Positions 1,663 to 30,186 of a stretch of 33,682 nt of DNA are shown in pieces (the stretch's first letter is position 1; each line of letters begins with the position of its first letter). The notes beneath the pieces were generated by a model. That model was not told the DNA's origin and made no database searches. It saw only the letters and a program-made list of their open reading frames with translations. The position numbers were made by a program, and so were the translations under genes. This DNA is from a virus, in IMG/VR virus record IMGVR_UViG_3300036768_001194, positions 1 through 33,682 of that record. One strand, given 5' to 3'.

Positions 1663-1766
1663 GGGCCAAAATTTTACCGCTTGCCCGCCGTGTAACGTGG
1701 GCGGCCCCGCGCGCGAATTTTTGCGAAATTGGCGAATCAATGGGTCACTGAAACGGGAGGAGGACG

Positions 1767-2477: not shown

Positions 2478-3751
2478 CTTTCCGCATCCCGAAGACGACC
2501 ATCTGGCAGCAGAAAACTTTGGAAAAGTTCGGCGATGTGTACGCGGAGACGGTAGTGCGGATGTGCCGCTGGGCACTGTCGCACATTGATTTCGGTGAGA
2601 TGGACGGCGAGGTGGACGCGCGGCGAGTGCTGAAGCTGCTGCCTAAGTGCGAGGAAGTCAATGGCGAATCACGCATCCTGCATGGTTGTCTGCGTGAAGA
2701 CCTGCGCAATGATGTTGCCGCGAAACTTGCGTCATACGTTCAGCTGATGAAGATGCACGAAAACCGGCAGCTGCGGTTCCGTCCTGGCTTTTGGGCAAGC
2801 CGCGTCAAGGAGCCGCGTCCATACGAGCAGCTGCTGAAGGAAGCGATCTTCCGGGAGTTCGAGACAAACGATGACTTCCTGGATTGGCAGGGCAATCTGC
2901 TCTCGCACGGATGGCTCTCGAAAGCGACGCGACCGCAACTCGGCGAGCAACTGCTTTTCCTGGGCACGTCCGGTGCGCGGCGGTGTCATGTGCTGGTGCG
3001 ACGCAAAGGTGGTGAGTTGCAGGCGGCAGCGGTTCTTTACATCGCTGCGAAAGGTGTGTTTCCAGGTGTCGTTATTCCGCCCGATGCAGGCTGGCTCGAT
3101 TTGTGCGATTGCAGACCCTACGCGATGCGCAGTCGGTCGGTGATGGTGCTGCCGCTTTTGACGCGAAGCGAATACGTTCGGAAATTTCTTGACGACGCGC
3201 TAGGTGGCATGGCGAGGCCTGCAGCTGCGAAACTCTATCGCAAACGGCGTAACGAGTACGAGAAGTGGACGTGGTTTCTCGCAGTGACGTTCCGCGTGCA
3301 GTGTCCGCAACCGTACGAAGCCGAGCAGTGGCTCGAAGTGGAGAGCACTTGGCTGCGTGGCAGTCCGCCGTCTGTTGCTCTGCGTTATCCCAACGGCGAG
3401 TGCATGGAAGTGTTCGCGCAGCTTTACGAAAATCACCTGAAACCTGCGATGTCCTGGCAGTTCGTGCACGCGCGGAACAAGCAGAAGCGAATGCGCGACA
3501 CGTTCGGTCTGCATCGTGTCGGCGCGGAATGGGAGCGGTGTTTGCACGTAACAGCGAGGTCAATTGTCGCAATTGCGCAGAGCAAACAGTGGGGCGTGCG
3601 GTGGGTTGGTGGCGCGCCGTTCCGGTTGAAACGACTGCCTGACTATGTGATGAGAAAAGCCAGACTTGCCGGGGTACCCGCCAGGTGGGTAAAAAAGACT
3701 AAGACGCGGGAGGTCAGTTGTGAGACGAACGGCGAACCGGCACCAGAGTAA
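2453..3751 (+). CDS. Nuclease-dead miniature TnpB/Cas12-like protein
   Basis: 432 residues. The layout matches TnpB and type V-U/Cas12 effectors. The N-terminus has a strand and a helix (LTVTFRIPKTTIWQQKTLEK, residues 6-25). At 229-280 there is a WED-like segment (SVMVLPLL, then DDALGGMARPAAAKLYRKRR and WTWFLAVTF). At 365-382 lies HVTARSIVAIAQSKQWGV, which resembles the helix before the RuvC-II Glu. At 390-423 comes FRLKRLPDYVMRKARLAGVP plus RWVKKTKTREVSC, the usual y-K-A-x-x-A-G-v-p segment leading to the zinc ribbon. The RuvC-I Asp is not in a recognisable G-I-D context, the RuvC-II Glu position reads RWVGG, and the chain stops after the first ribbon Cys, so RuvC-III is absent. It should bind guide RNA and DNA without cutting, like TldR or Cas12m proteins. 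The array starts about 240 bp downstream. Homology is by eye. Confidence 0.7.
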   Translation: MPDQMLTVTFRIPKTTIWQQKTLEKFGDVYAETVVRMCRWALSHIDFGEMDGEVDARRVLKLLPKCEEVNGESRILHGCLREDLRNDVAAKLASYVQLMKMHENRQLRFRPGFWASRVKEPRPYEQLLKEAIFREFETNDDFLDWQGNLLSHGWLSKATRPQLGEQLLFLGTSGARRCHVLVRRKGGELQAAAVLYIAAKGVFPGVVIPPDAGWLDLCDCRPYAMRSRSVMVLPLLTRSEYVRKFLDDALGGMARPAAAKLYRKRRNEYEKWTWFLAVTFRVQCPQPYEAEQWLEVESTWLRGSPPSVALRYPNGECMEVFAQLYENHLKPAMSWQFVHARNKQKRMRDTFGLHRVGAEWERCLHVTARSIVAIAQSKQWGVRWVGGAPFRLKRLPDYVMRKARLAGVPARWVKKTKTREVSCETNGEPAPE

Positions 3752-3960
3752 CGGCCTGGGTTGCAAACCTGTGCTGTCTATCCACAGGGGGCTGGGGGCT
3801 TCGTGTATGACCTCCGTGGCTTACGGGCCCTTGGCCCGAATCCCGGTAACGGGCCCACTAATCTCCCCACCAACGCGCCCAGGCCGTTACTCTGGTGCCG
3901 GAAGCTCTTGCGGCTCCTGTGTGCGGCCAGCGGCGTTCGTCTGTCCCCACCGTGACTGCG
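3737..3960 (+). ncRNA. Candidate tracrRNA-like structured RNA with anti-repeats
   Basis: Two perfect 24-bp inverted arms, at 3737-3760 and 3878-3901, enclose a 117-base loop. The left arm includes the stop codon of the TnpB/Cas12-like gene, recalling how omega RNAs overlap the end of tnpB. Three stretches are complementary to the conserved end of the downstream repeats. Bases 3776-3782 (GTCTATC) give 7 bp. Bases 3858-3872 give about 11 Watson-Crick pairs with one bulged C. Bases 3939-3960 can form about 16 pairs with the repeat, including three G-U wobbles and one bulged A. Position between effector and array fits a tracrRNA. No clear promoter was found, so it may be processed from the effector mRNA. 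Transcription is inferred. Confidence 0.5.
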
Positions 3961-3975
3961 TCGCTGGCCGTTTTT

Positions 3976-6062
3976 GTGCGCCTATTGCGGGAGTGGGAGA
4001 TAGACTTCTGCGAGCTTGTCCGCGAAACAGCGACTGCGATAGGTCACGGGCGAACTATGGTGGGAGATAGACCGATGGTTATGTCTTGAACGAGCAGTGG
4101 CCTTGCGAGTCTCAAGCGAACTGTGGTGGGAGATAGACCCGTATAGGCTTCCTGACATTTTGTCTATTAAAGAGGTCACGAGCGAACTATGGTGGGCGAT
4201 AGACTTGACGCAGAATTTAGACCCATCTGCGCGGCGCAATTGTGATAAACGAACTATGGTGGGAGATAGACCACTAGATAACTCAGTCACGGGCAAACTA
4301 TGGTGGGAGATAGACCCATAGTGCGTGGCCACAGCGAGCGCCCATCGCTCGGTCTCAAGTGAACCATGGTGGGAGATAGACTGACAGGTGTGCGTGATGC
4401 ACGTGTTCGCATGTTTGGTGACAAGCGAACTATGGTGGGAGATAGACGACTCGCCGATAATAACAGCCCAAAGCACCGATGCAGTCACAAGTGAACCATA
4501 GTGGGAGATAGACTTGCTGTTTGCATCGAGCCATGTGACCTTGAACGGGTCATAAGTCAACCACTGTGGGAGATAGGCCTCGGTGAGCATTTGCCATCCT
4601 TTTTGTGCGAATTGTGTGACAAACGAACTATGGTGGGAGATAGACTTCCCTTTCCCCTTGAACCCCTTTCCTTTCCGTCATAAGTGAACCATGGTGGGAG
4701 ATAGACACTCCAGTGCGGCCCAAAGCGCGGCGGTTTTCAGCGGTGATAAGGGAACTATGGTGGGAGATAGACCCAACCCGCCACTTGGCTCCTGATCACT
4801 GCCCAGATGCCACAAGCGAATCATAGTGGGAGATAGACCACGCGATAGTCGGAATGTAATTCCCAGCAGCGCTTCCGTCGCAGGTGAACCACGTGGCGGG
4901 CGATAGACGCTGGCAATGTCAATGGCTGCGGTGTGAGAGCCAGGATGGGATTTGTGCATGTGGGGATAAGGGAACTGTGGTGGGAGATAGACAACTAATC
5001 AAGATATTAAACCCAGTGGCAATCGCGGGTGACAAACAAATTATGGTGGGAGATAGACAGCGGGCGTTCAACGTGTTTTACCCCAAAATCATTGTGTGAC
5101 AAACAAACCATGGTGGGAGATAGACGACCGCTTGCAGGTGCCACCTCAAGCAAACTGTAAAAGCTACAAGCGCACTAAGGTGGGAGATAGGCAAAGGTAC
5201 ATCATAAAGGGAGCGTGCAGCTGAATTGCAACACTCACGTGGCGTCGCGGGCGATAGACATTGGCCTGCCTGCCTACACGATCGCCGCTGGACAGCATAG
5301 GTGGGAGATAGACCAGGCAGTTTTGACGGTCAGTGAAACAGCTGACTACGTCACAGGCCAAGCATGGTGGGAGATAGACTCACTGAAAATTGGCCGGCGC
5401 CGCGTAATCGTTTGGGAGTAACAAGCGAACTATGGTGGGGGATAGACCCGCTAGCAAAAACGCCCCGCGGCGGATGGCATATCGTAACAAGCGAACTATG
5501 GTGGGGGATAGACTGCTCGGTTGCGGGAATTCAACGTGGGAGATAGACGCTCCCGAAAACGCGGCTTGTTTTTGTGTGACTTGGTCACAAGCACACTGTA
5601 TTGGGAGATGGACGCGTGAGCGCTAGAATTGGGCACACACAATTGTCCCGTCGCAATCGAACTATGGTGGCAGATAGACAGCTAGAGCGTAAAAGCAGAC
5701 CAAGACGGGCGAGTTGTCACAGGTCAAGTATGGTGGGAGATAGACTTCGAGGCAGTTTGTGAGTTCGCGTCAGCAATTTCACGGTCACAAGCTAACCACG
5801 GTGGGAGATAGACCCAACGCCCCAACCGAGCCTGGGAGCGCAGCCGAGCGGTCATAAGTGAACCATAGTGGGAGATAGACGCTAACTAGCCAGCCCGGCC
5901 GTTCAGGCAACTCGCTGGTCACAATCGAACTATACTGGGCGATAGACGATGCCCCACTCGGACTGTGGTGGCAACCATCTATGCCTGCGGTGGACTGCAG
6001 TGGGAGATAGACAGGATGCGCTGATACGGTTCCTGGCAGGAAACCTGACGTGGGAGATAGAC
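3976..6062 (+). CRISPR. Degenerate CRISPR-like array, about 33 repeats
   Basis: Thirty-three copies end in a nearly invariant 13-base core, GTGGGAGATAGAC. Core ends are at 4005, 4072, 4138, 4204 and so on to 6012 and 6062. Full repeats are 30 bases, starting typically GTCACAAGCGAACTATG and joined to the core. Most spacings are 65-68 bp, which gives unique spacers of 35-38 bases and classic CRISPR geometry. Repeats 1, 20, 21, 25, 32 and 33 keep only the core. The upstream half of the repeat varies far more than in ordinary host arrays. Short spacers of about 14 bases follow repeats 5 and 24, and one spacer is 54 bases. If the transcript runs rightward, the invariant core would supply the crRNA 5' handle. 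No cas1 or cas2 is present. Spacer targets are unknown. Confidence 0.82.
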
Positions 6063-6085
6063 GCCACATCGTAATCGCTAACAGC

Positions 6086-6469
6086 TCACAGCCACACGTC
6101 CACGTTGGCGGTGCAACTGTAGATGTCGCTCTCATGTTCTTCCAATTGCGGGCCGCGTGCGCCTGACTGAAACCAGATGCCCTCGTTTGCTGCCGCCTCG
6201 CTTGTTATTCGCAGCAGCACTTTGTCGCACACAGCAACCGTTGCAGGTCTGCCCTGTCCCCACACTGCTATGAGCACTGACACGTGTCTGACAACAGCGG
6301 GGTTGCTCAGCGATTGTTCCACCTGCATGTCGCTGCTTTGGATTGCAATCGCGGGCAATTGAACACCAGCGCGCAGCTCACCGACTGCGATGCGACCACC
6401 AACTGCCGCGTTCACTTCAGCATCAGCCAGCAGGAAATCTCGCACTCGCTGTTCTGCGTCGCGTATCAT
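6086..6469 (-). CDS. Tail completion/neck protein (DUF3168-like)
   Basis: This 127-residue protein sits at the end of the leftward head-connector operon. The pattern fits small neck or tail-terminator proteins of HK97-like phages: an N-terminal helix and V-G-G-R-I (RDFLLADAEVNAAVGGRIAV), then a LPAIAIQSSD strand, then an R-H-V-S-V-L-I-A-V-W strand and a helix. Such proteins close the tail tube where it meets the head. Its start overlaps the stop of the HK97 gp10-like gene by four bases (ATGA), which indicates translational coupling. It is the last gene before the repeat array, whose final core ends 23 bp from this stop. Family assignment is by fold pattern and gene order. Confidence 0.65.
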   Translation of the reverse strand: MIRDAEQRVRDFLLADAEVNAAVGGRIAVGELRAGVQLPAIAIQSSDMQVEQSLSNPAVVRHVSVLIAVWGQGRPATVAVCDKVLLRITSEAAANEGIWFQSGARGPQLEEHESDIYSCTANVDVWL

Positions 6470-6996
6470 CGTGCACCCTTGCCGTACTTGTACTTCATCA
6501 GCTGCTTGTCCAGAATTTCGCGTGCGATGTTCGGCAACATCGGTTGCACCGCTTCTGCTGCGGCCTGGCTCGCGTGAACGGGCCTGCGAATGCCGGGATG
6601 GTGAACCACGATTTCACGGCGAATCCCGTGGATTACTGGGCGGATGATGAACGTGTGCGGTTTCACGCCCAGCTCGACAAGGTGGAAATACTTGACGGGC
6701 CGGTGAATCCTGGCCACGCCGAACCCTGACCACCAGCCCTTGCGGAAGTCTTTGTCTGGATACACCATCACCGCTTCGTATCCGGGCCTGCGGCGGAATC
6801 GCTGCGGTTTGCGAACTTTGATACTGCGTTTGAGTGCGCCCGACAGCACTGGCACGCGGGCTTTCAGCTCTCTCGCAACTGCACGACCGACCGCGCGGAC
6901 GATTTTCTGAACGGTTTGCACAGCAACTTTGCTTCCCAGTGTTCGCAGCTCCGCGAGAGCTGTCGCTGCCTCAACTCGCACAATCGGACGAATCAT
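6466..6996 (-). CDS. HK97 gp10-like head-tail/tail component
   Basis: At 176 residues it is a little longer than the usual HK97 gp10 family. Typical features are an N-terminal alpha-helical stretch (ALAELRTLGSKVAVQTVQKI), then ARELKARVPVLSGALKRSIK, which is the family's A-P-v-x-t-G-x-L-x-x-S-I signature, then beta-strands and the YFHLVELGVKPH segment near a second conserved region. These proteins connect neck and tail during assembly. It overlaps both neighbours by four bases (ATGA junctions), so it belongs to one tightly coupled leftward operon. The C-terminus is strongly basic. Confidence 0.75.
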   Translation of the reverse strand: MIRPIVRVEAATALAELRTLGSKVAVQTVQKIVRAVGRAVARELKARVPVLSGALKRSIKVRKPQRFRRRPGYEAVMVYPDKDFRKGWWSGFGVARIHRPVKYFHLVELGVKPHTFIIRPVIHGIRREIVVHHPGIRRPVHASQAAAEAVQPMLPNIAREILDKQLMKYKYGKGAR

Positions 6997-7337
6997 ATCT
7001 GCGTCTCGCTGACGGTCATCACGATGTACCCATCCGCGTCGGGCGGTGGCACCGTTCCAGGGTACCAGGTGCGACCGTCCTGCAGCGAGACGAACCGGAC
7101 GCGGCCAGGCGGCAATGCGATGCGTGGGTCGCGAATCGTCAGCTTCGCAGAAACGCCGTACATCTCTTTTGTGCCCGTCAACTGATCGCGCACGCTGAGC
7201 GGTTCGAGCGCACCGAAGATGACGCTGACAGCGACTTGCCAGTTGGGCGAAGTTTCGCCGCTGGTGTTGGGGCTGGCGCTCTGGTCTATTTCGAGTCGGA
7301 ACGGATGTCGCAGTTTGCCGGGAAATCGTGGGCGCAT
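6993..7337 (-). CDS. Head-tail adaptor (head closure) protein
   Basis: A 114-residue protein resembling the phage head-tail joining family (SPP1 gp16 / HK97 gp7-like). It opens with G-K-L-R-H-P-F-R-L-E-I, continues with NTSGETSPNWQ and a VFGALEPLSV-like segment, and ends with a DGRTWYPGTVPPPDADGYIV strand pair. These match the usual G-x-L-x-x-R-I, G-E-x-x-x-x-W, x-P-L-S-G and terminal strand order. Such adaptors plug the connector channel after packaging. Position between the gp6-like connector and gp10-like gene is the canonical order and supports the call. Confidence 0.7.
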   Translation of the reverse strand: MRPRFPGKLRHPFRLEIDQSASPNTSGETSPNWQVAVSVIFGALEPLSVRDQLTGTKEMYGVSAKLTIRDPRIALPPGRVRFVSLQDGRTWYPGTVPPPDADGYIVMTVSETQI

Positions 7338-7338
7338 C

Positions 7339-7995
7339 TCAGATGATTCGTGTGATGTACGGCGTCAGCAGTTGCGTTACACCGAGCGTGATTTCCTGCG
7401 TTGTCTGCACCTCAGTTGCCGAGCGATTCTCGTAAAAGTGGCCGACCAGGAGCAGGATTGCCTGTTGAACCGGATAGGGCACAACGCCCGCATCGGGCCA
7501 GCCGCATCGCATTTCGATTTTGACGGGCAGCGGCCTGGTTGGGTCAGAAGGCGGCCAGAACACCGCGCGAGCATAACCCTGGGGCATGTCGCTGCTGAAC
7601 CACGGGCGAACTTTGCGGCTTATGAGATAGGGCGGATTTGTTCCGAGTGCCAGCGAGTAATCGTCAGGCGGCAACGTGGTCAGAGTTCCTGACGTGTCAA
7701 AGTATTCGACTTTGATTATTTCCGCGACAGGATAGAACGGAAGAATCAGTTGCGGCGCGTCGCGCCATGTGGTCTCCCAGCGATAACGCGAGTTGACGAC
7801 GACTAAACCGTGCATGTCTAGGAGCCACTTCGTCGCGGTGCGGACGAGCGATTCGAGATATGCGTCTTCTGTGTTCGTGTAAACGCGGCATTGCTGACGT
7901 GCGCGTTCAACCGAGACAGGCAACCAGGTGCCCTCTTCGAGCAGCGTGAACGTTCCGCCCTGCAACAGCTCGTTCAGTGCCGTTACTGTGTGCAT
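7339..7995 (-). CDS. Head-tail connector protein, HK97 gp6-like
   Basis: A 218-residue protein of the phage gp6/gp15 connector family, which forms a ring below the portal. The segment AYLESLVRTATKWLLDMHG gives the characteristic helical start, followed by RWETTWRDAPQLILPFYPVA and the IKVEYFDTSGTLTTLPPDDY strand pair. Near the end, PVKIEMRCGWPDAGVVPYPV leads into QQAILLLVGHFYENRSA, which matches the family signature of a C-G-W/Y-x-x-x-x-x-v-P x x i x x A i l l l v x h w Y x x R. The order MCP, small protein, gp6, adaptor, gp10, neck is standard. It begins 49 bp after the preceding small gene. Confidence 0.82.
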   Translation of the reverse strand: MHTVTALNELLQGGTFTLLEEGTWLPVSVERARQQCRVYTNTEDAYLESLVRTATKWLLDMHGLVVVNSRYRWETTWRDAPQLILPFYPVAEIIKVEYFDTSGTLTTLPPDDYSLALGTNPPYLISRKVRPWFSSDMPQGYARAVFWPPSDPTRPLPVKIEMRCGWPDAGVVPYPVQQAILLLVGHFYENRSATEVQTTQEITLGVTQLLTPYITRII

Positions 7996-8043
7996 CGCCG
8001 ACCTCGTGAAGGCGGGGCCGGGCAGCCAGTGAAGGCTGCCCGG

Positions 8044-8262
8044 CTACGCGGGAGGAGGACGCAACCGTCTGCGGTGTGGCGAGCGGTGCGATGTGTCAAG
8101 TGAATGTGTCTCGACTTCGCGTTGCACAGGCTCAGCTTGTCCAGTTGCAATCAGCCTCTGTGCAACGGTAGCTGGCAGCGTTACCTCCTGGCCAGGCTCA
8201 GCATAGATGCCGTGCCCGGACAAGTAAGTCGTCAGCCGCACTGTCATCGTGGTGTCAGTCAT
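8044..8262 (-). CDS. Small head-region protein, unknown function
   Basis: This 72-residue protein is encoded just downstream of the major capsid gene (5 bp gap). The first half, VRLTTYLSGHGIYAEPGQEV then LPATVAQRLIATGQAEPV, resembles the short proteins often found between capsid and connector genes in HK97-like phages, where a strand, a P-G-x-x-v-x-L-P turn and an A-x-x-L-i-x-x-G-x-A helix recur. The tail is basic and probably disordered. It could be a minor capsid or connector accessory protein. No catalytic motif is visible. Confidence 0.6.
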   Translation of the reverse strand: MTDTTMTVRLTTYLSGHGIYAEPGQEVTLPATVAQRLIATGQAEPVQREVETHSLDTSHRSPHRRRLRPPPA

Positions 8263-8267
8263 TAGTA

Positions 8268-9548
8268 TTATGCGGCCGTCTTGAGTGCCACAATCGGATG
8301 GCTGCCGGCATCGAGCAGTCGTGAGTCGTGTCGGCTGAACAGGATGAACGCGACCTGGTCGCTGACAGCGTACAGTTCAGCCGCCTGAATCAAACGCATT
8401 TCAGCGACGTCGCGGATAACAAAACGGGACCAATCACCGAAGAGCACGACCTTCTTATCGGCGGCAAGCTCAGGGAACCAGCGGTTGATGACGACGGGAT
8501 ACCCGAACAATGTGTCGGGAAACTCAGTGTTCATCGCGCGCTGCTGCTCAATGAGATAGCGACCAGTGCTGTCTTTGAGTTTGCGAATCGCCACAAGCGT
8601 TGATTCGTGCATCATAAAGACAGCGTTACGGCGATAAATCGGATCGAGCTTGTGGATCAAGTCCAGCAGTTCGTCTGCCGTAATCGCGTTCTGCGCAGCT
8701 GCTGTTACTGCAACGTACGCGGCCGTTACAGCACCTTCGGGCTGATTGACACCGCTGCCGATCGCGAAGTGTTCCTCAGTTCCGCGGGCCAGGCGTTCAG
8801 CCAGGATTCGCGGCAGCTCGCGGTCAAGTCCGACTGCGTTGTCTTCCAGCAACTCACTCGTGATGCGAACAGCTGTCCCGTACTTGTATGCGTTGAAAAC
8901 CTTGTGCGCAAAACCGACTCCCGTGAAACTTACATCCGTTGCTTCGCCGACGATTGCCGCCTTGCTGGCAGTGTCGTCAGCGAGCGGCCAGCGCAACTCA
9001 GCGCCTGTATCGGTGCGGATGACACGTGCCACGCGGCGGATGTTTGAGTTCTGAATGAGAGCGCGTTCCAGCTCGCCCGAGAAATCCACGGGCACAGTGT
9101 AACCGCCAGCAGTCGCTGGACTGACTTGGAGTTGACGCAGTTCAGCTGACGTGAGCAGCGAGAAGCTCAATTCACGTGCATCCAGACGCACACCGTACTG
9201 CTCGCAGAGTTCGTGCTCTTCGTCGCTGATTGCCCGACCAGAGCGGAACTTGATCCATGCAGCGAGAGCTTGAGTGGGCAACACGCGATGGAACGGAAGC
9301 GGAGCGCCTTTCATCACGGGCGGTTTCGGGGCGGGAGCTGCCGGTTCAAAAAGCTCTCTTTCGAGTTTTGCGAGATGTTGCTGTCGTGCAATCAACTCGC
9401 CGAGACGGTCGTATTCGCGGTTCAGATGTTCCCACTGCGCGTTCTCTTCAGCGGTGAAATCGCGGTACTCTTTCTCAACACGCTCGCAGAGTTCGCGCAT
9501 ACGCTTAGCGAGTTTCAGACGTTCCTCACGCAGTGCCTGCAGGTTCAT
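8268..9548 (-). CDS. Major capsid protein, HK97 fold, with delta scaffold domain
   Basis: From the ATG at 9548 the protein has 426 residues. The first hundred or so are a charged coiled coil (LREERLKLAKRMRELCERVE and on), typical of the fused delta or scaffold domain removed by the prohead protease. The mature part begins around the ISDEEHELCEQYGVRLDARE region. Family hallmarks include GGYTVPVDFSGELERALIQN, VGEATDVSFTGVGFAHKVFN, AVRITSELLEDNAVGLDREL, GSGVNQPEGAV and FGYPVVINRWFPEL. The frame extends upstream to a TTG at 9596, but ATG 9548 fits the family start better. It lies directly after the protease gene, as expected. Confidence 0.93.
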   Translation of the reverse strand: MNLQALREERLKLAKRMRELCERVEKEYRDFTAEENAQWEHLNREYDRLGELIARQQHLAKLERELFEPAAPAPKPPVMKGAPLPFHRVLPTQALAAWIKFRSGRAISDEEHELCEQYGVRLDARELSFSLLTSAELRQLQVSPATAGGYTVPVDFSGELERALIQNSNIRRVARVIRTDTGAELRWPLADDTASKAAIVGEATDVSFTGVGFAHKVFNAYKYGTAVRITSELLEDNAVGLDRELPRILAERLARGTEEHFAIGSGVNQPEGAVTAAYVAVTAAAQNAITADELLDLIHKLDPIYRRNAVFMMHESTLVAIRKLKDSTGRYLIEQQRAMNTEFPDTLFGYPVVINRWFPELAADKKVVLFGDWSRFVIRDVAEMRLIQAAELYAVSDQVAFILFSRHDSRLLDAGSHPIVALKTAA

Positions 9549-9638
9549 GCGATGTCTCACACTGACCTTTCGCGCTACGGCGCGAATTGAACGCAAGTCT
9601 AAAGCGTGCGAAACGAAGGTTACGCGGTTGTTCGCTTG

Positions 9639-10721
9639 CTACACATCCGCAGCAGCCAGTCGCAGTTTCGCTTCAGCAACTCGCAGTCGCGCGGTTACAA
9701 GCGATGTCGGCCGCGAGTGGAATTCAGGTGGCTCCATGTCGAACTGGGCGTAGTGCTTGGCCAGGTGTTCGTACACGCCCTTGCGGTCTGACTCAGGAAT
9801 GTCAACGCCGCCACGGGCGCCCAGTAGCGCCTGCATCGCCGCAATCACACCAGCACGCGAAACGACCAGCTCGCCGTCGCGTATGTCGTGATGTGGCAGC
9901 TTGTACGCTCCGAACGTTTCAGCGTTTTCCGAATCGTACCAAGCGAACGCACGGCGATACTTAGCCCAGTCCATGTTGTCTTCGCCACCCGCCCAGGCAC
10001 GCACACGAGCAAGCGCTGCTTCCGCGTCCCAGCTGTCGCTGTCAAGTGTGGGTGTTGCTTCGTAGGGCACAACGCCTCGGTGTTCGGCCTGCTGAAAAAA
10101 GACGCGGCTGCGAGTGATGACGTGCTCGCGCCAGCTGGCGAGTTCTGCAGTTGTTGCCGGGAAAGCTGGAATCGCAACCGGACCGAGTTCGACCAGGTCA
10201 ACTTCGTCCAGCCACCGAATGAGTGTCTCGCCGTCCTGTTCAAATGTCTCTTTGCGCACAAAGAACGCAATCGAGCTGCCACGCACATCGCCGCGGGCAA
10301 TCAGATGCAACAGGTCGGACGCCAGTTCTGTCGGCGGCATGTCAATCTCATACCACAGACCGCGTGCATCCTTACCAATTCGCAGTGTGCCACTGGAACG
10401 GCGGCCAAGCAGGTTGTTCAGGTCGTGATTGAACGACGCGACGACGTCGTGGTTCGAGTCTGCGAGAATTGCGTCGAACGCGGTTGGCCGCACTCTTTCA
10501 GCTACGCCACCCCACGCGAACTCGGTGTTGGGAGAGCCATCATAAAAGACGGCGGCGTAACCGCGGACGCGCGGCATCTCCTGGTCGTCTCGCGTGATGA
10601 CCAGCTCAGAGGGCCACTCACGTTTTTCGAGGTCACGGGCAGTATTTCTCGCAGAGCTGGCGGACAACGCGGTCGGCGAAGTAATCGGTCGGCTCTTTGT
10701 GGAATCTAATCGCTTCTGCAT
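9639..10721 (-). CDS. HK97-type prohead protease with C-terminal extension
   Basis: A U35-family serine protease that matures the capsid. The core is clear: VRGYAAVFYDGS at 52-63, SFNHDLNNLLGR with the catalytic His at about 99, and DVRGSSIAFFV with the catalytic Ser at about 149-150. After about residue 215 comes an extension (WDAEAALARVRAWAGG, then KLPHHDIRDGELVVSRAGVI and GGVDIPESDRKGVYEHLAKH) of a kind often fused to phage proheads and self-cleaved. The start is unsettled. ATG 10721 has a good GAGGAG site but would overlap the upstream gene by 89 bp and gives an atypical Ser/Thr-rich leader. ATG 10577 gives a normal N-terminus but has GGAG right against it. Confidence 0.9.
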   Translation of the reverse strand: MQKRLDSTKSRPITSPTALSASSARNTARDLEKREWPSELVITRDDQEMPRVRGYAAVFYDGSPNTEFAWGGVAERVRPTAFDAILADSNHDVVASFNHDLNNLLGRRSSGTLRIGKDARGLWYEIDMPPTELASDLLHLIARGDVRGSSIAFFVRKETFEQDGETLIRWLDEVDLVELGPVAIPAFPATTAELASWREHVITRSRVFFQQAEHRGVVPYEATPTLDSDSWDAEAALARVRAWAGGEDNMDWAKYRRAFAWYDSENAETFGAYKLPHHDIRDGELVVSRAGVIAAMQALLGARGGVDIPESDRKGVYEHLAKHYAQFDMEPPEFHSRPTSLVTARLRVAEAKLRLAAADV

Positions 10722-10935
10722 AGGTCATCTCCTCTACCTGGTCGGCGTCGCAATCAAGCACTTCGCAGTACGCTCGGAAGTACCTGCCAACGACGGCGTG
10801 GTTTTTCTCACGCAGCACTTCAGTCGTCAGCTTTGTTCGCTTGACGAGGCGTTCTGCGCACTTTTTGATTCGCCACACCGCGTGGCGGATAAGCTCCGTG
10901 GTTGCTTGTCGGATGCTTTCAGGAGTGAGTGGCAT
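10633..10935 (-). CDS. Small protein between portal and protease genes, unknown
   Basis: A 100-residue protein from ATG 10935 (a longer start at 10983 would overlap the portal gene by 65 bp). It is mostly helical and charged (PESIRQATTELIRHAVWRIK, RAYCEVLDCDADQVEEMTYA, DYFADRVVRQLCEKYC). I do not recognise the family. Its start overlaps the portal stop by 17 bp and its end runs into the protease reading frame, so it belongs to the head operon. The long overlap with the longest protease frame means that either this protein's tail or the protease's first 48 residues is the real coding reading. Confidence 0.55.
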   Translation of the reverse strand: MPLTPESIRQATTELIRHAVWRIKKCAERLVKRTKLTTEVLREKNHAVVGRYFRAYCEVLDCDADQVEEMTYAEAIRFHKEPTDYFADRVVRQLCEKYCP

Positions 10936-12256
10936 CTTGGTCGTCCGGCTCTTCGGCATCGGACACAGCGTCGGCAGTGTCATCGCTAGTGTCTCCGTTG
11001 TCCCCCTGCGAACTTGGCTGCTGCGGCTGTTGTGTCATTCCACTGTCAACGGGCGGAGTCAGCGTAACGTTCAGTGGCACGAAGGCGCGGTCTCCGTCGG
11101 GCAGCGGGTTCAGCGACTCTTTCGCACGCACTTCGTTTCGCGTCAGGAAGCCAGCCTGAATGCCCTGCGTGTAGGCGCGGTAACGCGATTCCAGGTCGGT
11201 GCGCACTAACGCCCCGCGCTCAAACTCGATGTACATGTTCTCCTGCTCGTCTTCGCTGAGCAACTTCACCATCATCTCCTGTTCAATTGCGACAAGAATC
11301 GGGTCGAGAGATTCGGACAGATACGATGTCATTTCCGCTTCGAGTGAGGCGTAGCTGGTGCGGCTTGGATCGCCGACTTTGGAACTGGGCACGTTGCCGA
11401 ACGCGGCGATGTTGCGCAAGGACGCGAGCAACGTCGCGGTCATCTCCGCTTCACGTGAGTTGATCTGAAACGTCTTGATGTCAACATCGCCGTCCAGCAC
11501 CGCGACACGATGCGCGTTCTCGGCGGTGTACATTCTCTCGAACGCTTCGCGTATCGCACGCCTCGCCTGGTCGTTGAGCTGACGGCGATACACAAGAGCC
11601 ATGCTGGGACGCGCGTAGTTTCTGAACAGTGCGCCCACGAAACGCCGAATCGCAATCCATGCTGCGATGTCTTCACGCGCAACTTTCCACAAAGGCACGC
11701 CAGCCAAGCCGTCAGCGGTGACGATGCGAACGTGAATCATGTCGTCGGCAGCAACGTCCATTACGTTCGCGCCGTCGGTCATGGGATGTGGTGGCGATGT
11801 GTACTGGTCGAGACCGCTCGAACGGGGCAGCGTTACTCGGTAGTAGAGAGTTCCATCACTGTCGCGCTGAATCGCAACATTCGGAGCTTCGATTGGCCAC
11901 AACTCGATTGGCGTTCCTGCCCGGTTGCGGCGCACGTACACATAACCGTTACCATGCAGCACCGCGTTCCACACAAGTGCGTTTTTGAGTGCGTACGCAG
12001 TCATCTCCGGGTTGGGTTTTAGCCTGAGCAACTTCGCAACGGGATGGTTTCTTACAAGTTGACGCGAACCGTCATCTGCGACGCGGTACAACTTGAGCGG
12101 CACTTTCGCTACATCGCGCGCGAGCATCGAAACAACGCGGTAAAAAGGCGCGACCGTCAGCGCTGCTTTCGGGGTAACACGAATACCCGGCGCAGTGCGC
12201 GCGTCAAAAAAGTCCAGAAGTTCAAGACCCACTAGCGGATTGCTGTTGCTGCTCAT
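10919..12256 (-). CDS. Portal protein, HK97 family
   Basis: This 445-residue protein forms the dodecameric channel through which DNA enters the head. Recognisable family blocks are VAPFYRVVSMLARDVAKVPL near the start, HPVAKLLRLKPNPEMTAYAL, HGNGYVYVRRNRAGTPIELW, VPLWKVAREDIAAWIAIRRF, and NVPSSKVGDPSRTSYASLEA in the C-terminal third, which is the usual L-g-V-P-x-x-l-x-g..t-y-s-n-x-E motif. The C-terminal 35 residues are acidic and low-complexity. It is the first gene of the leftward head operon. A 94-bp divergent gap separates it from the rightward tail operon, so that gap should hold promoters for both directions, though I could not pick a convincing one. Confidence 0.93.
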   Translation of the reverse strand: MSSNSNPLVGLELLDFFDARTAPGIRVTPKAALTVAPFYRVVSMLARDVAKVPLKLYRVADDGSRQLVRNHPVAKLLRLKPNPEMTAYALKNALVWNAVLHGNGYVYVRRNRAGTPIELWPIEAPNVAIQRDSDGTLYYRVTLPRSSGLDQYTSPPHPMTDGANVMDVAADDMIHVRIVTADGLAGVPLWKVAREDIAAWIAIRRFVGALFRNYARPSMALVYRRQLNDQARRAIREAFERMYTAENAHRVAVLDGDVDIKTFQINSREAEMTATLLASLRNIAAFGNVPSSKVGDPSRTSYASLEAEMTSYLSESLDPILVAIEQEMMVKLLSEDEQENMYIEFERGALVRTDLESRYRAYTQGIQAGFLTRNEVRAKESLNPLPDGDRAFVPLNVTLTPPVDSGMTQQPQQPSSQGDNGDTSDDTADAVSDAEEPDDQDATHS

Positions 12257-12350
12257 GCACGCGAGCTTACGACGTGCGAACGCCTAAATCGCACGCAATA
12301 ACATCGCAACTGCGGGTCGCTTTCGATCTGCGCGAAATGGGAGCGCAATT

Positions 12351-12686
12351 ATGCCTCTACCTTGGGATGGCATTACCTTCTCCGGCCCCGGCATCAGCGG
12401 CAAGGTGCGACGCATTAGCGGCACGGCCGGGTCGGCTCAGCGCGTTGACGTAACGGCCTTGGCAGACGCAAAACGCGTTTACCTGCCTGGACTTCCTGAA
12501 GATGGCGAGTTGACGTTCGAGATCATCTCCCCCGGCGCCCTCTCTCCACCCAGCGCTGGCACCACTGGAACGTGCACAGTCGGCTCTGTTAGCTGGTCAT
12601 GCATGATTACCGGCGTGGATGTAAACGTCAGTGTCGGTGAGGCCCCTGTCATTACTGTGAAGGTGGCGGCAGTTGAAACATCATAA
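12351..12686 (+). CDS. Probable major tail tube protein
   Basis: This 111-residue beta-rich protein opens the rightward tail operon. Gly, Thr and Val content is high, with alternating strands (GITFSGPGISGKVRRISGTA, VDVTALADAKRVYLPGLPED, ELTFEIISPG, VGEAPVITVKVAAVETS). The v-D-v-T-x-x-x-D and P-G-x-x-d-x-g-e-l-x-f-e-i pattern is common in small siphophage tail tube proteins. Its place immediately before the tail assembly chaperones and tape measure is the standard position for the tube gene. GGGAG precedes the ATG by eight bases. Assignment is from pattern and gene order. Confidence 0.65.
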   Translation: MPLPWDGITFSGPGISGKVRRISGTAGSAQRVDVTALADAKRVYLPGLPEDGELTFEIISPGALSPPSAGTTGTCTVGSVSWSCMITGVDVNVSVGEAPVITVKVAAVETS

Positions 12687-12753
12687 CAGGGGTGAGCTGC
12701 GCCGAAGGTGACGGCGCAATTCGCCAAGGTCCGCTTCGTGTGATGCCACAGCC

Positions 12754-13092
12754 ATGACACTGCACCCTGACCCGATTGCAGTCGAATACCGCGGCAACAC
12801 CGTCTGGGTACACGCCCCGACGCCACGCGACTTTTTCGAGGTGAACGTGTACCTTGCTAACGACCCGCGCACGTCCGCGGTGAGCGAGCAAGACCGCACG
12901 ACGCGTCTAGGACTTCTGCTTGGGCTGCAATGTGCCCGTAAGGGCCAGGAGCGCACCAGCGAGCGGTTGTTTCCCGACCTGGCGACAGCAGAGGAATCGT
13001 GCCCGTTCGATTTAGCAACGCAGTTAGCGGTGGCAGTCGGCAAGTTTCTGCGCGGAGTTGAAGACCAAAAAAAATTCTCCGACACGACCTGA
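12754..13092 (+). CDS. Tail assembly chaperone, gpG-like
   Basis: This 112-residue protein precedes a DUF4035-type gene and the tape measure gene, the place of lambda gpG-like chaperones, which coat the tape measure protein while the tail is built. The sequence is a strand pair (PIAVEYRGNTVWVHAPTPRD) followed by helices (DLATQLAVAVGKFLRGVEDQ). A run of eight A residues at 13067-13074 near its 3' end sits in the correct phase for -1 slippage into the next gene, as in lambda G/GT. Its stop TGA overlaps the next ATG by one base. Confidence 0.68.
   Translation: MTLHPDPIAVEYRGNTVWVHAPTPRDFFEVNVYLANDPRTSAVSEQDRTTRLGLLLGLQCARKGQERTSERLFPDLATAEESCPFDLATQLAVAVGKFLRGVEDQKKFSDTT
13067..13074 (+). other. 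Slippery A8 site for -1 frameshift (G to GT)
   Basis: The run of eight A residues includes an A-AAA-AAA heptamer whose two AAA codons lie in the frame of the upstream chaperone gene. Slipping back one base enters the frame of the downstream DUF4035 gene. That frame has no stop between 13074 and its ATG at 13092, so a fusion of about 227 residues would result. Programmed -1 slippage at this point is conserved in many long-tailed phages. The event itself is inferred. Confidence 0.65.
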
Positions 13093-13415
13093 TGTTGCGG
13101 TTCGTGCTGCGCCTCGCGCTCCGGCTCGGCAAGACATTAGCGGAGATAGCGGACATGAGCTGGAGCGAATTGCAACTGTGGGCAGCATATTATCAGCTCG
13201 AACCCTGGGGCGAAGAACGCAGCGACTTGCGTGCCGGCATCATTGCGAGCACAATCGCAAACGTTTACCGCGACGCATCACGTGAACCGTTCAGCCCACT
13301 TGATTTCATGCCCGACTTCGCCGAAGACCGCGGCCCGCAACCGGGTAGGTTCTACGAGCCTAAGACCGTCCAAGAGGCCGAAGCCCTTGTGCGATTTTTC
13401 CTGGGGATTAAGTAA
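13092..13415 (+). CDS. Tail assembly chaperone T domain (DUF4035-like)
   Basis: This 107-residue protein carries the DUF4035/minor tail T pattern: LRLGKTLAEIADMSWSELQL followed by AAYYQLEPWGEERSDLRAGI and then IASTIANVYRD with a SPLDFMPDF segment. In the family these blocks read l-g-x-t-l-a-E-l, s-x-x-E-l-x-x-w-x-a-y-x-x-l-e-P-w-G-x-x-r-x-D, and d-F-m-p. It is probably made mainly as the C-terminal part of a frameshifted fusion with the upstream chaperone, which would recruit the tape measure to the tube. The TAATG junction at 13412-13416 couples it to the tape measure gene. Confidence 0.78.
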   Translation: MLRFVLRLALRLGKTLAEIADMSWSELQLWAAYYQLEPWGEERSDLRAGIIASTIANVYRDASREPFSPLDFMPDFAEDRGPQPGRFYEPKTVQEAEALVRFFLGIK

Positions 13416-15730
13416 TGCCCGAAATCGGTGTACGTATCAGTGCTGACGCAATCGAGTTTATCAACGCTATCAAGCGCGTTGAGAAACAGACCGAAGACTT
13501 TCGCAAGTCGTTTGAGACGAAGATGGAAAGTGTCAGCTCGCTGGCAAAGAAAGCGCTCGGCGCATTCGTCGCGTTCCAGGGTCTCGCGGGGCTGAAGGAG
13601 TTTACCAACTCGGTGGACGCAATTATCAAAAGCTCGCGAGCGCTGGGAGAGTCTGCAGAAGCGTTCGCCAACATCGCTGGCAAAGCGAGCCTAGCAGGCG
13701 TCAGCACAGAGGCGCTGCAGACGGGACTACACCGGCTCCAGCGGGCGCTGGCTGAGGCACAGTCAGGAAGCGGTGAAGCAGCTGACGCTCTGGCGCAACT
13801 GGGTCTGAGTGCGGACGAGCTGGTCGGACTGCCGCTCGAAGAGAAGTTGAAAAAGATTGTTACCGCCATGCAATCGTTGAACCAGGAGTCACGCGAGGCT
13901 GTGGCGCACGCCCTGTTTGGTCGAGGTGGGCACGAGTTTCTCAAGTTGCGACCGCAAGACCTGGAAGGCGGGCCCGGCCTGATGTCGCGTGCGTTCGGTG
14001 CTATCGGCAAAGAAGGTCAAAACCAAATCGAGGAACTGAACAACTCGTTTGCCAAAATGGGCGGGGTTGCGAAATCCATCAGCACTCTCATCGTTGCCAG
14101 CCTGGCTCCCGCAATCAACTCTGTCGCTGCGGCAGTGGTCAACTTCACGAAGTTTCTGCTCGACAACGCTGCCACTGTGATGACACTGATTCGCACAGCG
14201 TTAGCAGTCGCAGGCGCGTTTCTCGCGTGGCGTGCGGTGATTATGGCGGTAACAGCGGCGATGGCTGTGTACCGCGCAGCGCTACTTGCCGTGGCCGCGG
14301 TGAAGGCGTTTCTGGTTGCGTTGACCGGGCCAGTCGGCATCGCGCTTGTCGCAACGGCGGTAGCTGCGTCGAGTCTCGCAGTCGCGGCTGCGTCGCAGAT
14401 GGGTTTGTTCAGCGACAAAGCCCAGGAGTCTGCCGACAACGCTAAAGAGCTTGCGGTAGCAGCACGCCAAGTTGCTGATGGCGCCAAAGGTTTTGCCACC
14501 ATTGCTCAGGTTGCTGTGGGCACCACGCAGGCGGCAAAGGAAGCTGCGGAGGCGGTGAAAAAACTCGACGACGAGATGAGCAAAGCCTTCGCAGAGCGGC
14601 AGAAGTCAGCGGTCCTGGCGGTCAATCTCGACGTTCCGAAATTCGCCGTTGATATCACGCAGCAGTTTGACGATGCGCATGCAAAAGCGACAGAAAAGCT
14701 CCGCCAAATCCGCGAAGCGATTGCGCAGGTTGAGGCTGAGTTTCGCCGGTTGGAGCCAGCTGGTCAGGCGGCGATGCGAGCGATGGCCGGAGCCGCAGAG
14801 CCAGACGAACAAACCAAAGCTGTCCTGAACGCATGGACTCAGGTTGGCGGTTTGCTCGCAAAACTGCGTGAACAAGAGCGACAGGCTGTCGCTGAGCTGG
14901 CTCAGTTGGAGCAGAAGCGTGCCCAGCAACTTCGCGTTGTCGCTGAGACCGAAGCGAACAAACGCATCCGCGAATTGAACGAAGAAGTTGATAAGCTCCT
15001 GGGCCACGACTGGGACAGGTTCCTATCGCAACTCCAGAAAGCAGGTGCACCGCAAGGCGCGATTGAACAACTCCAGTTCGCAAAGCAGGCGGCGGAAATC
15101 GCACAAGTAGCTAAGTCCGCCCGCGAGCTCGGTGAGGAACTCAATCGTGCGGCACTCGAAAACGAGCTACTCGCTCGCGGTTTCACACAGCAGGAAGCGA
15201 GACTGGAAATCCTGCGTCGTCAGATCGGCGAGGTGCGGCAAGGCGGTTTCCTCGACAAAGAGCGAGTTGATGCAATCAATAAAGCGTTCGCTGATGCAGC
15301 TGAAGCGGCGAGACGGCTAGGTGAAGCGACGCTATTGAAAGATGCTGCTGATGCGGTCAACCGCATGCGCGAGGCTGCGAGCGGCATTCCGCCCGCGTTT
15401 GCGGACGCGGCGCGAAATGCGGCACTGCTCGACATCGCACTGCAAAAGGGTCTGATTGGCGCGCAGGAGCACGCGCAGTTGCTGGAACAACTGTTTGCCC
15501 AGGTCGGTCAGAACATCATGCAGAACTTCTCGCAGATGCGACCCATCGTGAAGGGCAGCGTCGAAGAAGCGAGACTCTTGCTGCAACGTGAGGCGCAGGG
15601 ACAGGCGCGAGACATCGCACGTGAGATATTGCCACAGTTGGCCCAGCTGGCTCGTCAGCAGCTGGAAGCGCAGCACCGCATCGCGCGCGCTGTTGAACGA
15701 CAAGACGCGCCGCGAGTGGTCGGGCCGTAG
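13415..15730 (+). CDS. Tape measure protein
   Basis: At 771 residues this is one of the longest genes in the window. It is nearly all helical and Ala/Gln/Glu-rich, as expected of a protein that sets tail length. A hydrophobic region at about residues 258-326 (VAGAFLAWRAVIMAVTAAMA, then LVALTGPVGIALVATAVAAS) fits the membrane-active segments of tape measures. The N-terminus, ISADAIEFINAIKRVEKQTE, resembles the usual start of the family. From about 380 onward long coiled-coil stretches dominate. A length of 771 residues predicts a moderately short siphophage tail. No peptidase or lysozyme domain was recognised. Confidence 0.88.
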   Translation: MPEIGVRISADAIEFINAIKRVEKQTEDFRKSFETKMESVSSLAKKALGAFVAFQGLAGLKEFTNSVDAIIKSSRALGESAEAFANIAGKASLAGVSTEALQTGLHRLQRALAEAQSGSGEAADALAQLGLSADELVGLPLEEKLKKIVTAMQSLNQESREAVAHALFGRGGHEFLKLRPQDLEGGPGLMSRAFGAIGKEGQNQIEELNNSFAKMGGVAKSISTLIVASLAPAINSVAAAVVNFTKFLLDNAATVMTLIRTALAVAGAFLAWRAVIMAVTAAMAVYRAALLAVAAVKAFLVALTGPVGIALVATAVAASSLAVAAASQMGLFSDKAQESADNAKELAVAARQVADGAKGFATIAQVAVGTTQAAKEAAEAVKKLDDEMSKAFAERQKSAVLAVNLDVPKFAVDITQQFDDAHAKATEKLRQIREAIAQVEAEFRRLEPAGQAAMRAMAGAAEPDEQTKAVLNAWTQVGGLLAKLREQERQAVAELAQLEQKRAQQLRVVAETEANKRIRELNEEVDKLLGHDWDRFLSQLQKAGAPQGAIEQLQFAKQAAEIAQVAKSARELGEELNRAALENELLARGFTQQEARLEILRRQIGEVRQGGFLDKERVDAINKAFADAAEAARRLGEATLLKDAADAVNRMREAASGIPPAFADAARNAALLDIALQKGLIGAQEHAQLLEQLFAQVGQNIMQNFSQMRPIVKGSVEEARLLLQREAQGQARDIAREILPQLAQLARQQLEAQHRIARAVERQDAPRVVGP

Positions 15731-15738
15731 GGTGAACT

Positions 15739-16611
15739 GTGGAAGTCAAACTGCTGAGTAGATCAGGAACTGGCTCACTCACAGGGCGAAGCGAGATTGT
15801 CGAGACGTATCTCGTTATTGCCGATAAAGACGACGGCGTTCCCGACGTAGCTGCTGCGCCTGGGATTGTTCTTGGCACGCCGCATCCCGACGCGCCGGCC
15901 CTGTTCCTAGAAGAAATCCGCCCGCGTCTGCAAGAGGTTGGCAAAGACAAAAACGTCTGGCACGTCGAACTCGTTTATCGCATGCCGGAACCGGCGCAGG
16001 TAGGTTCGCATGACAGAACCGCTCCGCCAACTGGCGGACACACGGGCATGACCGGCGACCCGACGACGTGGCCGATAGAAATCAGCATCTCTGCGCGGAA
16101 GCAGGAAGTTGCAGCGACGAAAGACCTTGACGGCAGGCCGTTGGTGAACTCAGCTGGCGGCGTGTTTACAGAACCGATGATGACAACACGGGTTCTAGGT
16201 GTTGTTTCGTTCACTAAGTATTACGCGCCCGGATACCCTGTGCTGAACCTAGTGCTGGCCATGACCAATCGCGTGAACGACAGTGACTATCGCGGTTTCG
16301 CCAAGCACAGTTTACTGTGCGAGTCCGTTGATGCGACGTTCACGAAAGTCAACAGCTTTTGGGTCTGGCAGTGCCGATTTGTCGTGGTGTACAACCCGTC
16401 CAAGTGGATACCGACCGAGATTCTGGATGCAGGCTATTTCTACCTTGATGCAGAGGGTCGCAAGAAACTTGCAGTTGACGACCGCGGCAATCCGCTAGGG
16501 CAACCGGTTTTACTTGACGGCCGCGGACATCTTTTGCCGCAAGGCGCTCAGCCCGTCTATCTGACGTTCAGGTTCTACGATGTAGCAAACTTCTCGATGT
16601 GGATCGGATAA
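15739..16611 (+). CDS. Tail protein downstream of tape measure, unknown family
   Basis: This 290-residue protein starts with GTG, nine bases after the tape measure stop. It is beta-rich with a Gly/Thr-rich middle (APPTGGHTGMTGDPTTWPIE) and aromatic strands near the end (NSFWVWQCRFVVVYNPSKWI, YLTFRFYDVANFSMWIG). I do not recognise a named family. Its position suggests a tip or distal tail structural protein. The C-terminal half has a pattern seen in large planctomycete phage proteins only in the loose sense of alternating hydrophobic strands, so no function is assigned. Confidence 0.65.
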   Translation: MEVKLLSRSGTGSLTGRSEIVETYLVIADKDDGVPDVAAAPGIVLGTPHPDAPALFLEEIRPRLQEVGKDKNVWHVELVYRMPEPAQVGSHDRTAPPTGGHTGMTGDPTTWPIEISISARKQEVAATKDLDGRPLVNSAGGVFTEPMMTTRVLGVVSFTKYYAPGYPVLNLVLAMTNRVNDSDYRGFAKHSLLCESVDATFTKVNSFWVWQCRFVVVYNPSKWIPTEILDAGYFYLDAEGRKKLAVDDRGNPLGQPVLLDGRGHLLPQGAQPVYLTFRFYDVANFSMWIG

Positions 16612-25703: not shown

Positions 25704-26039
25704 TTACGCTATGCGTTTGAGCAGGCCGAGTTCCCAGAAACCAGCCTGGATAACGTTGCGAATCTGCCCCTTGTCCTTCGGGTCAATCCTGGGATGACCA
25801 GGGGGCAAAACAAGCCGGAACACGAGCGCCTCGTCGCCGGGCTGCATTTTGATTGTGATGCGGTTCACGGCGACTGGTTCGCCGAGCAGCTCAGTCAGGG
25901 CATCGGCGGTTTCCTGGTAACCGATAGTGCTCGTTACGGGCCCGGCTGCGTACCAGGCTCTCGCTTGTTCAGGAGTCATCCGTTCGTAGGTGTAGGTTCC
26001 AAAGTCTGTGATGACCGCGGAGTTAAGGATGAATCGCAT
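25704..26039 (-). CDS. DUF1874/AcrIII-1-like protein with catalytic His replaced
   Basis: A 111-residue protein of the DUF1874 (STIV B116/AcrIII-1) family, viral ring nucleases that destroy cyclic tetra-adenylate and so block type III CRISPR defence. The family pattern is complete: FILNSAVITDFGTYTYERMT, TSTIGYQETADALTELLGEP, VAVNRITIKMQPGDEALVFR, and a final GFWELGLLKRI. The catalytic His lies in the S-x-I-G-H-x-x-T-A block, but here that position is Tyr41 (IGYQETA). The encoded codon at 25917-25919 on the plus strand reads GTA, which is TAC on the coding strand. It could be inactive, bind without cutting, or act on another ligand. AAAAGGAG precedes the start. It is preceded by an unknown gene in one leftward operon. 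Confidence 0.8.
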   Translation of the reverse strand: MRFILNSAVITDFGTYTYERMTPEQARAWYAAGPVTSTIGYQETADALTELLGEPVAVNRITIKMQPGDEALVFRLVLPPGHPRIDPKDKGQIRNVIQAGFWELGLLKRIA

Positions 26040-26052
26040 AGCAAATCTCCTT

Positions 26053-26829
26053 TTAGTCCACGCCTCGGCTCACGCTAGGGATTGGGTGTCGGGCTACGCA
26101 GATTTGCATTGGTTTGATACAAATTGGTTCGTCTTCATGGTCTTCAGAGGTAATGTAGACTGCGTCGTTAGATGCGACGAACACGGCGTAAGCAACGCCG
26201 TCAACAACGCGCCAGGCGAACTTGGATACGGGATAGATGTAGTGATTGTACAGTGCCCGGAACCCACTACCGGCGTCTGGCAACGCTTGGATCAACTCAC
26301 GCCAGAGCGGATTGTCGTCGCCAAGCACGAAGTTAATTACCTCTAAGTGGCCCTGGCGGTATGTTTCGTGCCAGAGCGGCGAGACGTGTTCCACCAGTTT
26401 CGCGAACGTCTCGCGCAACGGGTCTGGCATGGGAGCGACAACGTACGCAAACCAGTTGATGACCGCCGTCCCGCCCTGGATAACGTAGTTCCCGTGATTG
26501 GCGGACTCCAACTCCTCTTGAGAAGGATAGTCGTAATAAAACAGGCGGCGGTTGTCCTTGCTGGCGGGGGGTTTCCACTCAAACACGGTTACATATGCGC
26601 GTAACATCGGGTTGTATCGCGCCTCGTTCAACGCCCTTGAGGCGTTGCTGCCGCACAACCACCACGCGGCTTTGCCAGCGCGCGTGGACTCCAAACGCAC
26701 CGTCAACTCCGCCGGGCAATCGTGAAACTGGTAACGACGGCCTGGAACGAGGATCGTCGACCTCGTTCCGTTGGCGCCTGTTTCAGTCAGTTCAACACGC
26801 CAGTTCTCGATGTGGATCACTCGCCTCAT
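26053..26829 (-). CDS. Unknown protein upstream of the AcrIII-1-like gene
   Basis: A 258-residue protein from ATG 26829, which has an AGGAGG site seven bases upstream. It is beta-rich at the start (RRVIHIENWRVELTETGANG, STILVPGRRYQFHDCPAELT, AYVTVFEWKPP) and helical in the second half (VINWFAYVVAPMPDPLRETF, GFRALYNHYIYPVSKFAWRV). I do not recognise a family. It ends 13 bp before the AcrIII-1-like start, so the two share an operon. That makes it a candidate partner in defence evasion, by position only. Confidence 0.6.
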   Translation of the reverse strand: MRRVIHIENWRVELTETGANGTRSTILVPGRRYQFHDCPAELTVRLESTRAGKAAWWLCGSNASRALNEARYNPMLRAYVTVFEWKPPASKDNRRLFYYDYPSQEELESANHGNYVIQGGTAVINWFAYVVAPMPDPLRETFAKLVEHVSPLWHETYRQGHLEVINFVLGDDNPLWRELIQALPDAGSGFRALYNHYIYPVSKFAWRVVDGVAYAVFVASNDAVYITSEDHEDEPICIKPMQICVARHPIPSVSRGVD

Positions 26830-26898
26830 GGTCCGTCCTCCTCTTGTTTCCGCGTCCACGTATGATTACGCAGACGCGTGCTAATTCGTGACAGCTTT

Positions 26899-30022: not shown

Positions 30023-30186
30023 GGCACAGGCCAAGCATAGTGGGAGATAGACGGAACAATGTGCAACTAAGCAGGGAACTTATGCGGCGGGCACGGGCCA
30101 AGCATAGTGGGAGATAGACTCGTCCTGTGTCAATTTTCGTAAAAACTCTCGCCCTGGGCACAGGCTAAGCATAGTGGGAGATAGAC
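30023..30186 (+). CRISPR. Three-repeat CRISPR-like mini-array
   Basis: Three near-identical 30-base repeats at 30023-30052, 30090-30119 and 30157-30186 flank two 37-base spacers. All end in the same GTGGGAGATAGAC core as the large array 24 kb away. The upstream half (GGCACAGGCCAAGCATA type, with one or two differences) belongs to the same variant as repeats at 5350 and 5716 of the large array. A promoter-like sequence stands 150 bp upstream. Protospacers were not identified. The following gene begins 76 bp after the last repeat. It may be an RNA decoy or supply guides to the same protein. Confidence 0.75.

Follow-up and report, generated by a model that had tools for sequence, protein, structure and literature searches.

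The closest described relatives of the gene analysed here are the viral AcrIII-1 proteins and the cellular Crn2 proteins, both of the DUF1874 family. The active-site His of AcrIII-1 is reported to act as the general acid (PMC7371418), and its replacement in SIRV1 gp29 (H47A) is described as giving a catalytically inactive protein that still binds cyclic tetra-adenylate (cA4) at about 25 nM (PMC7213978). Crn2 also occurs in the Csx1-Crn2 fusion of Marinitoga, in which it is joined to a Csx1 effector and keeps its His (H495); the H495A variant is reported not to degrade cA4 (PMC7293037). A further precedent is provided by the Csx15 sponge/ring nucleases, with a CARF fold and not that of DUF1874, some members of which are presented as non-enzymatic sponges that only bind cA4 (PMC13148439). 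What AcrIII-1 does in its native virus is a matter of dispute (PMC11065993), and two contributions bear on this dispute by their titles (Nature 2025 640:E8 and E15). Anti-CRISPR and Crn2 surveys detect the family by homology and presume the His chemistry.

The gene described here is present in a virus record that comprises 33,682 bases and is called the window below (Table 1). It is flanked by a terminase gene (TerL) on the opposite strand and, on the same strand, by a gene encoding a 268-aa protein without any match in Pfam, PHROGs, NCBIfam or PADLOC. The encoded protein matches the Pfam family PF08960 (STIV_B116-like, DUF1874) with 50.3 bits (E 2.8e-13, cut-off 26), as does the record searched as DNA (49.7 bits, E 1e-14), in agreement with the membership in the AcrIII-1 family proposed in the first-pass annotation, and it also matches PHROG 5063, a family of unknown function. 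The closest sequence is a gene of a second phage (L002), 92% identical and likewise encoding the Tyr discussed below. The comparison of these two genes (dN 0.056, dS 1.26) gives a dN/dS of about 0.04, with dS near saturation, which rules out a degenerate pseudogene in the window. No type III CRISPR locus accompanies the gene, which sits in a phage record adjacent to TerL: there was no cas match among the ten window proteins, and the DUF1874 protein alone matched anything in the PADLOC scan of these ten.

Table 1. Positions of the Tyr-type gene, of its neighbours and of the repeat arrays in the window
Feature	Position	Strand	Observations
Tyr-type DUF1874 (AcrIII-1/Crn2-like) gene	25704..26039	-	ORF of 111 aa plus stop, ATG start; PF08960, fold, dN/dS
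Tyr41 codon TAC	25917..25919	-	Catalytic-His position of the family by alignments; Tyr in 31/31 clade rows
Loop L78-G91 (LPPGHPRIDPKDKG)	25767..25808	-	In place of the R-L-P-E-G loop of the His type; residues 81-90 with mean pLDDT 67
Lys90 codon AAG	25770..25772	-	31/31 Tyr rows; gap in 25/25 thinned His rows
Ribosome-binding site AGGAGA (upstream stretch AAGGAGA)	26046..26051	-	Read from the upstream sequence
268-aa gene, directly upstream	26053..26859	-	Identical gene order in L002; possible operon partner
CRISPR-like array, 31 units	3994-6062		Core TGGGAGATAGAC, counted with one mismatch allowed
CRISPR-like array, three units	30041-30186		Core TGGGAGATAGAC, one mismatch allowed

The active-site His of the S-x-[IV]-G-H motif is absent from the window protein. 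Its nearest solved relatives by sequence are AFV3-109 (2J6B, E 5e-8) and STIV B116 (2J85, E 0.0015), and the segment STIGYQETA aligns to TSAIGHQATA of AFV3-109, placing Tyr41 on the His, as noticed in the first-pass annotation. An AlphaFold2 monomer model, for which six clade sequences were used, has the AcrIII-1 fold (mean pLDDT 85.3). The model matches 2J6B with a Z score of 16.1 (105 residues, 1.9 Å), SIRV1 gp29 (6SCF) with 14.6 (106 residues, 2.2 Å) and the Crn2 domain of Csx1-Crn2 (8Y7G) with 14.0, the next unrelated structures after the DUF1874-fold matches being at 2.1. The likeness to AcrIII-1 (SIRV1 gp29, AFV3-109 and the THSA-485A phage protein) thus covers nearly the whole chain and extends to the N-terminal [LI]-N-S/T, S-x-[IV]-G, T-A and R motifs, as well as to the existence of a standalone viral gene of about 110 aa. 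The presence of another His in the active site, which had been named as a finding that would overturn this picture, was looked for. The sole His of the window protein is H82, which is found only in the window and in L002 and is replaced by Ser, Thr, Gln or Arg in close relatives, so that no conserved His substitutes for the one missing at position 41. A sequencing error does not account for the Tyr, since L002 carries it too, and a mutation of a single phage can be discarded as well, the Tyr being common to a clade of 31 members.

This clade was delineated by searching with profiles in viral and genome contigs, in phage and plasmid records and in one draw of genomes. After removal of duplicates, a fragment and false matches, the alignment comprised 62 rows: 31 with Tyr, 30 with His and one with Asn at the catalytic position. 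Left aside were L050 (on the same contig as L039), L057 (a stop in frame, residue 41 unaligned), L028 (not extracted), repeats of the same contigs or genomes (L001, L012-L017, L019, L022, L062-L069, L071, L076, L090, L095), L078 and L079 (dropped as false, with scores below the cut-off) and L091-L094 (found after the alignment). Eighteen of the Tyr rows come from viral contigs, including the window, and 13 from MAGs labelled as Nitrososphaeria, Nitrospira, Latescibacterota, UBP16, Caldiserica, Desulfobacterales, Methanoperedens, Chloroflexi and others. Among INPHARED records, the window protein matched 25, the L048 protein 26 and the L054 protein none; nine of these matches were aligned and all nine have the His. 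The search of 400 genomes of the phylum of G009 yielded no further Tyr gene beyond the starting one, and that of 395 genomes of the phylum of G002 no further readable one, together with three His genes (L091-L093) and one partial match whose residue is unreadable (L094).

In an unrooted tree of 97 columns, from which position 41 and the loop had been excluded, one branch with a support of 98/98 (the bootstrap being not fully settled) places every His row on one side and every Tyr row, together with the Asn row, on the other. A Tyr subfamily, whose existence the first-pass annotation had left to an alignment of many homologues, is therefore real. As a single branch parts the two groups, one change underlies their difference, and this change is far older than the window phage; its direction is not given, the tree being unrooted. 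The protein with Asn (L060, 5035-5343) falls within the Tyr group. The Lys-Gly loop and further motif residues described below are lost in it as well, and it is possibly decayed or of different function. Two Tyr-type domains (L037, 7590-8000 and L049, 9614-10000) are preceded by N-terminal extensions of about 130 aa, for which we could detect neither a Pfam match nor mutual similarity; the long N-terminal extension of L034 is probably due to a wrong start.

The first-pass annotation had considered that only the His was changed and that the rest of the family pattern was intact, which the alignment contradicts. Of the 30 His rows, 27 contain the loop motif R-[LPFA]-x-E-G, which none of the 31 Tyr rows has; in all of the latter, aligned position 90 is occupied by Lys, with Gly as the next residue in 29. 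The loop of the Tyr rows exhibits an Arg in nearly all cases, then usually Asp-Pro or Asn-Pro, and then the invariant Lys; in the window it reads R84-I-D-P-K-D-K90-G91, the stretch PRIDPKDKG standing where R-L-P-E-G follows the GD-x-A-L strand. Moreover, Glu43 replaces Ser/Ala two residues past the His position in 21 of 27 thinned Tyr rows. Although the Tyr rows are divergent (mean pairwise identity 47%, lowest 26%), 11 of 111 positions are invariant among them (N6, S7, V9, G14, Y18, S37, Y41, D69, A71, K90 and E103), whereas S37, G40, H41 and R60 are invariant in the His rows, in which the loop Glu is found in 29 of 30. Positions of the pocket motifs (N6, S37, G40, T44 and R60) are conserved in both groups, and several positions (Y18, W29, Y41, K90 and E103) are fixed differently in the Tyr branch. 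These data point to the rebuilding of the site and not to the loss of one residue, because both Tyr41 and the new Lys are strictly conserved. The pairing of Tyr and Lys does not represent independent covariation, since the change occurred once, on one branch; the evidence for the two residues lies in their invariance after that single change.

The nearest His relatives on the tree are the cellular Crn2 rows of Tepidimonas, Tepidicella and G223, and the GDEA[LV]V core and C-terminal G-L-L of Crn2 are common to the Tyr rows. Crn2 proteins differ from the latter by their His and, in Tepidimonas and Tepidicella, by an RLPEG loop. The PADLOC model named 'Csx16' (PDLC01147), for which PADLOC gives no cut-off, scores best on His-type Crn2/DUF1874 proteins (Tepidimonas 128, L075 107 and Vibrio 97 bits; viral His rows 69-72) and lower on the Tyr type (window 63 bits, other Tyr rows 48-61), so that its name may mislead the annotation of the family.

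The two groups also differ by their genomic context. Four of the six cellular or plasmid His rows (Tepidimonas, Tepidicella, G223 and a plasmid of Vibrio aerogenes) are encoded 3-5 kb from cas10; for the other two, only a weak Csm1 match was seen with L077 (G178), and L074 was viewed over a 4-kb stretch. In contrast, the Tyr gene shares a contig with a cas10 match in none of the 13 MAGs with a readable Tyr gene. Csm1 was detected above the cut-off in five of these 13 MAGs, compared with 67 among 297 genomes from one of the phyla involved, counts in which no clear enrichment of type III systems is apparent. Most Tyr genes are located in phages, proviruses or integrase-bearing elements. For instance, the MAG contigs L049 and L056 encode a terminase and L052 a tape-measure protein, while phage-type integrases are encoded by L047 and L058. 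BREX genes are present on L055, in which, within the region 623-10429, PglZ and BrxL (BREX-like) genes occur about 5 kb from the Tyr-type gene. On L046, the Tyr-type gene, which has a close relative on L051, is directly followed by a gene encoding a single-chain protein of 2138 aa with Rpb2 and Rpb1 RNA-polymerase domains (9530-15946) and then by a gene for a sigma54-activator-like protein. Inspection of 33 loci with a crude gene finder revealed no gene family that repeatedly neighbours the Tyr gene across many loci unrelated to one another.

One Tyr gene has a CRISPR context. It is carried by a 12-kb contig of a Nitrospira MAG (L044, 7764-8087) and is divergent from Cas1 (6416-7414, PF01867). 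A CARF-sigma54-AAA gene (PF09623, PF00158) starts 4 nt past its stop and is followed in the operon by a Card1-like CARF-endonuclease gene and by a second CARF gene (Card1-type). Altogether, the region 3332-11751 encodes Cas1, Cas6 and four CARF proteins, one of them a CARF-HEPN protein of the Csx1/Csm6 type. No cas10 was recognised on the 12-kb contig, and the first ORF, at the contig edge (1000 aa), matched nothing. The Tyr gene holds the same place beside cas1 as the His gene in the type III-B locus of the Vibrio plasmid, which is transcribed away from cas1 and lies at 3.3 kb from cas10, the cas10 operon coming next. Since the Nitrospira gene opens a CARF operon beside cas1 and cas6, a role of the Tyr branch linked to cyclic oligoadenylate is likely, at least in this locus.

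The gene of the window thus belongs to a known family, in which it falls into a separate branch that probably handles the same kind of molecule differently. We favour, with a probability of roughly 0.45, the reading in which the Tyr-type proteins bind cyclic oligoadenylate, most likely cA4, and remove it, the cleavage being carried out by a rebuilt active site. In this site, Tyr41, Lys90 and the Arg of the loop would stand in for the His and for the Glu of RLPEG. Such a Tyr/Lys/Arg chemistry would resemble that of the metal-independent Lys/Tyr/Arg RNases more than that of the His enzyme. In the phage setting, the removal of the messenger would quench type III CRISPR signalling and the window protein would act in anti-defence, whereas in the Nitrospira locus the Tyr-type protein would fill the role of Crn2. 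The requirement for the His in SIRV1 gp29 and in Csx1-Crn2 counts against cleavage by the Tyr branch. Against the reading as a whole also stand the 13 MAGs, in which no Tyr gene shares a contig with a cas10 match and type III systems are not clearly enriched, and the dispute over the native role of AcrIII-1.

The same requirement leads to the main alternative, that of a protein which binds cA4 tightly without cleaving it and lowers the signal by sequestration. We consider it rather unlikely for the branch as a whole, even though the conserved pocket motifs, the cA4 binding by the inactive SIRV1 gp29 and the Csx15 sponges all agree with it. Mere catalytic loss does not need a single fixed residue and a new invariant Lys at identities down to 26%, and the fixed replacement with its Lys fits a working site better. 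Moreover, the amounts of type III messenger would burden a sponge, to the point that the authors of the Csx15 study mention that sponging could be fruitless (PMC13148439). The first-pass annotation had suggested such a binding-only version, an idea that is conceivable but gained no support here; the strict conservation of Tyr41 and of the new Lys favours a rebuilt site.

The set of positions fixed differently in the Tyr branch and the location of most Tyr genes outside of type III loci could also indicate a change of ligand, another cyclic nucleotide, different in ring size or base, being cleaved or sequestered. We regard this as improbable for the branch in general, because the only Tyr gene in a CRISPR context sits among CARF genes, one of them Card1-like. 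Card1/Can2 responds to cA4. For some members of the branch, the target may nevertheless be a cyclic oligonucleotide different from cA4. Finally, a function without relation to messengers, e.g., the binding of nucleic acids or proteins, recalls the label 'DNA binding protein' in older annotations of some viral relatives but is very improbable in view of the conserved pocket motifs and of the CARF genes in the Nitrospira operon.

By extension of the cleavage reading, and a little more tentatively, DUF1874 may comprise two catalytic types, the second being a Tyr/Lys/Arg ring nuclease that occurs in phages and mobile elements across many phyla of bacteria and archaea and that replaces Crn2 in a type III effector operon of Nitrospira. 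A well-separated branch with a constant Tyr and a rebuilt loop would represent another catalytic solution or else a sponge of natural origin within the family. The role of the family in its own viruses is already disputed (PMC11065993). The Nitrospira operon offers a host context for the Tyr branch. Among the titles and abstract openings found in the literature, none deals with a Tyr-type DUF1874 protein, which is no proof of unpublished status.

The first-pass annotation had also inferred an intimate conflict with a type III system from CRISPR-like arrays in the window. The arrays exist, and the Nitrospira locus, with its CARF genes, cas1 and cas6, agrees with a type III link; the arrays themselves bring no evidence for such a conflict, because nothing found indicates which CRISPR type would use them. 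They recall the mini-CRISPR arrays described in viruses (PMC6858448), by analogy. Their spacing is mostly of 66-67 nt with spacers mostly of 35-38 nt, and the repeats are unusually degenerate, strongly so in their 5′ part. Three contigs from one metagenome (L086, L087 and L089), 84-94% identical to the window in long matches, share the position of the array but differ from the window in most of the spacers, and a fourth contig (L088) is 100% identical to window positions 1623-11889. Among the 71 spacers of the window, L086, L087 and L089, one from L087 matches the window at positions 1707-1740 (30/34, E 3e-4) and also the homologous place in L089, outside of the array; in a control with shuffled spacers, 1 of 1,420 gave an E value ≤ 1e-3. 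Just ahead of the first array, the window contains a perfect 24-nt inverted repeat (3737-3760 and 3878-3901, arms 117 nt apart), a possible leader or regulatory element.
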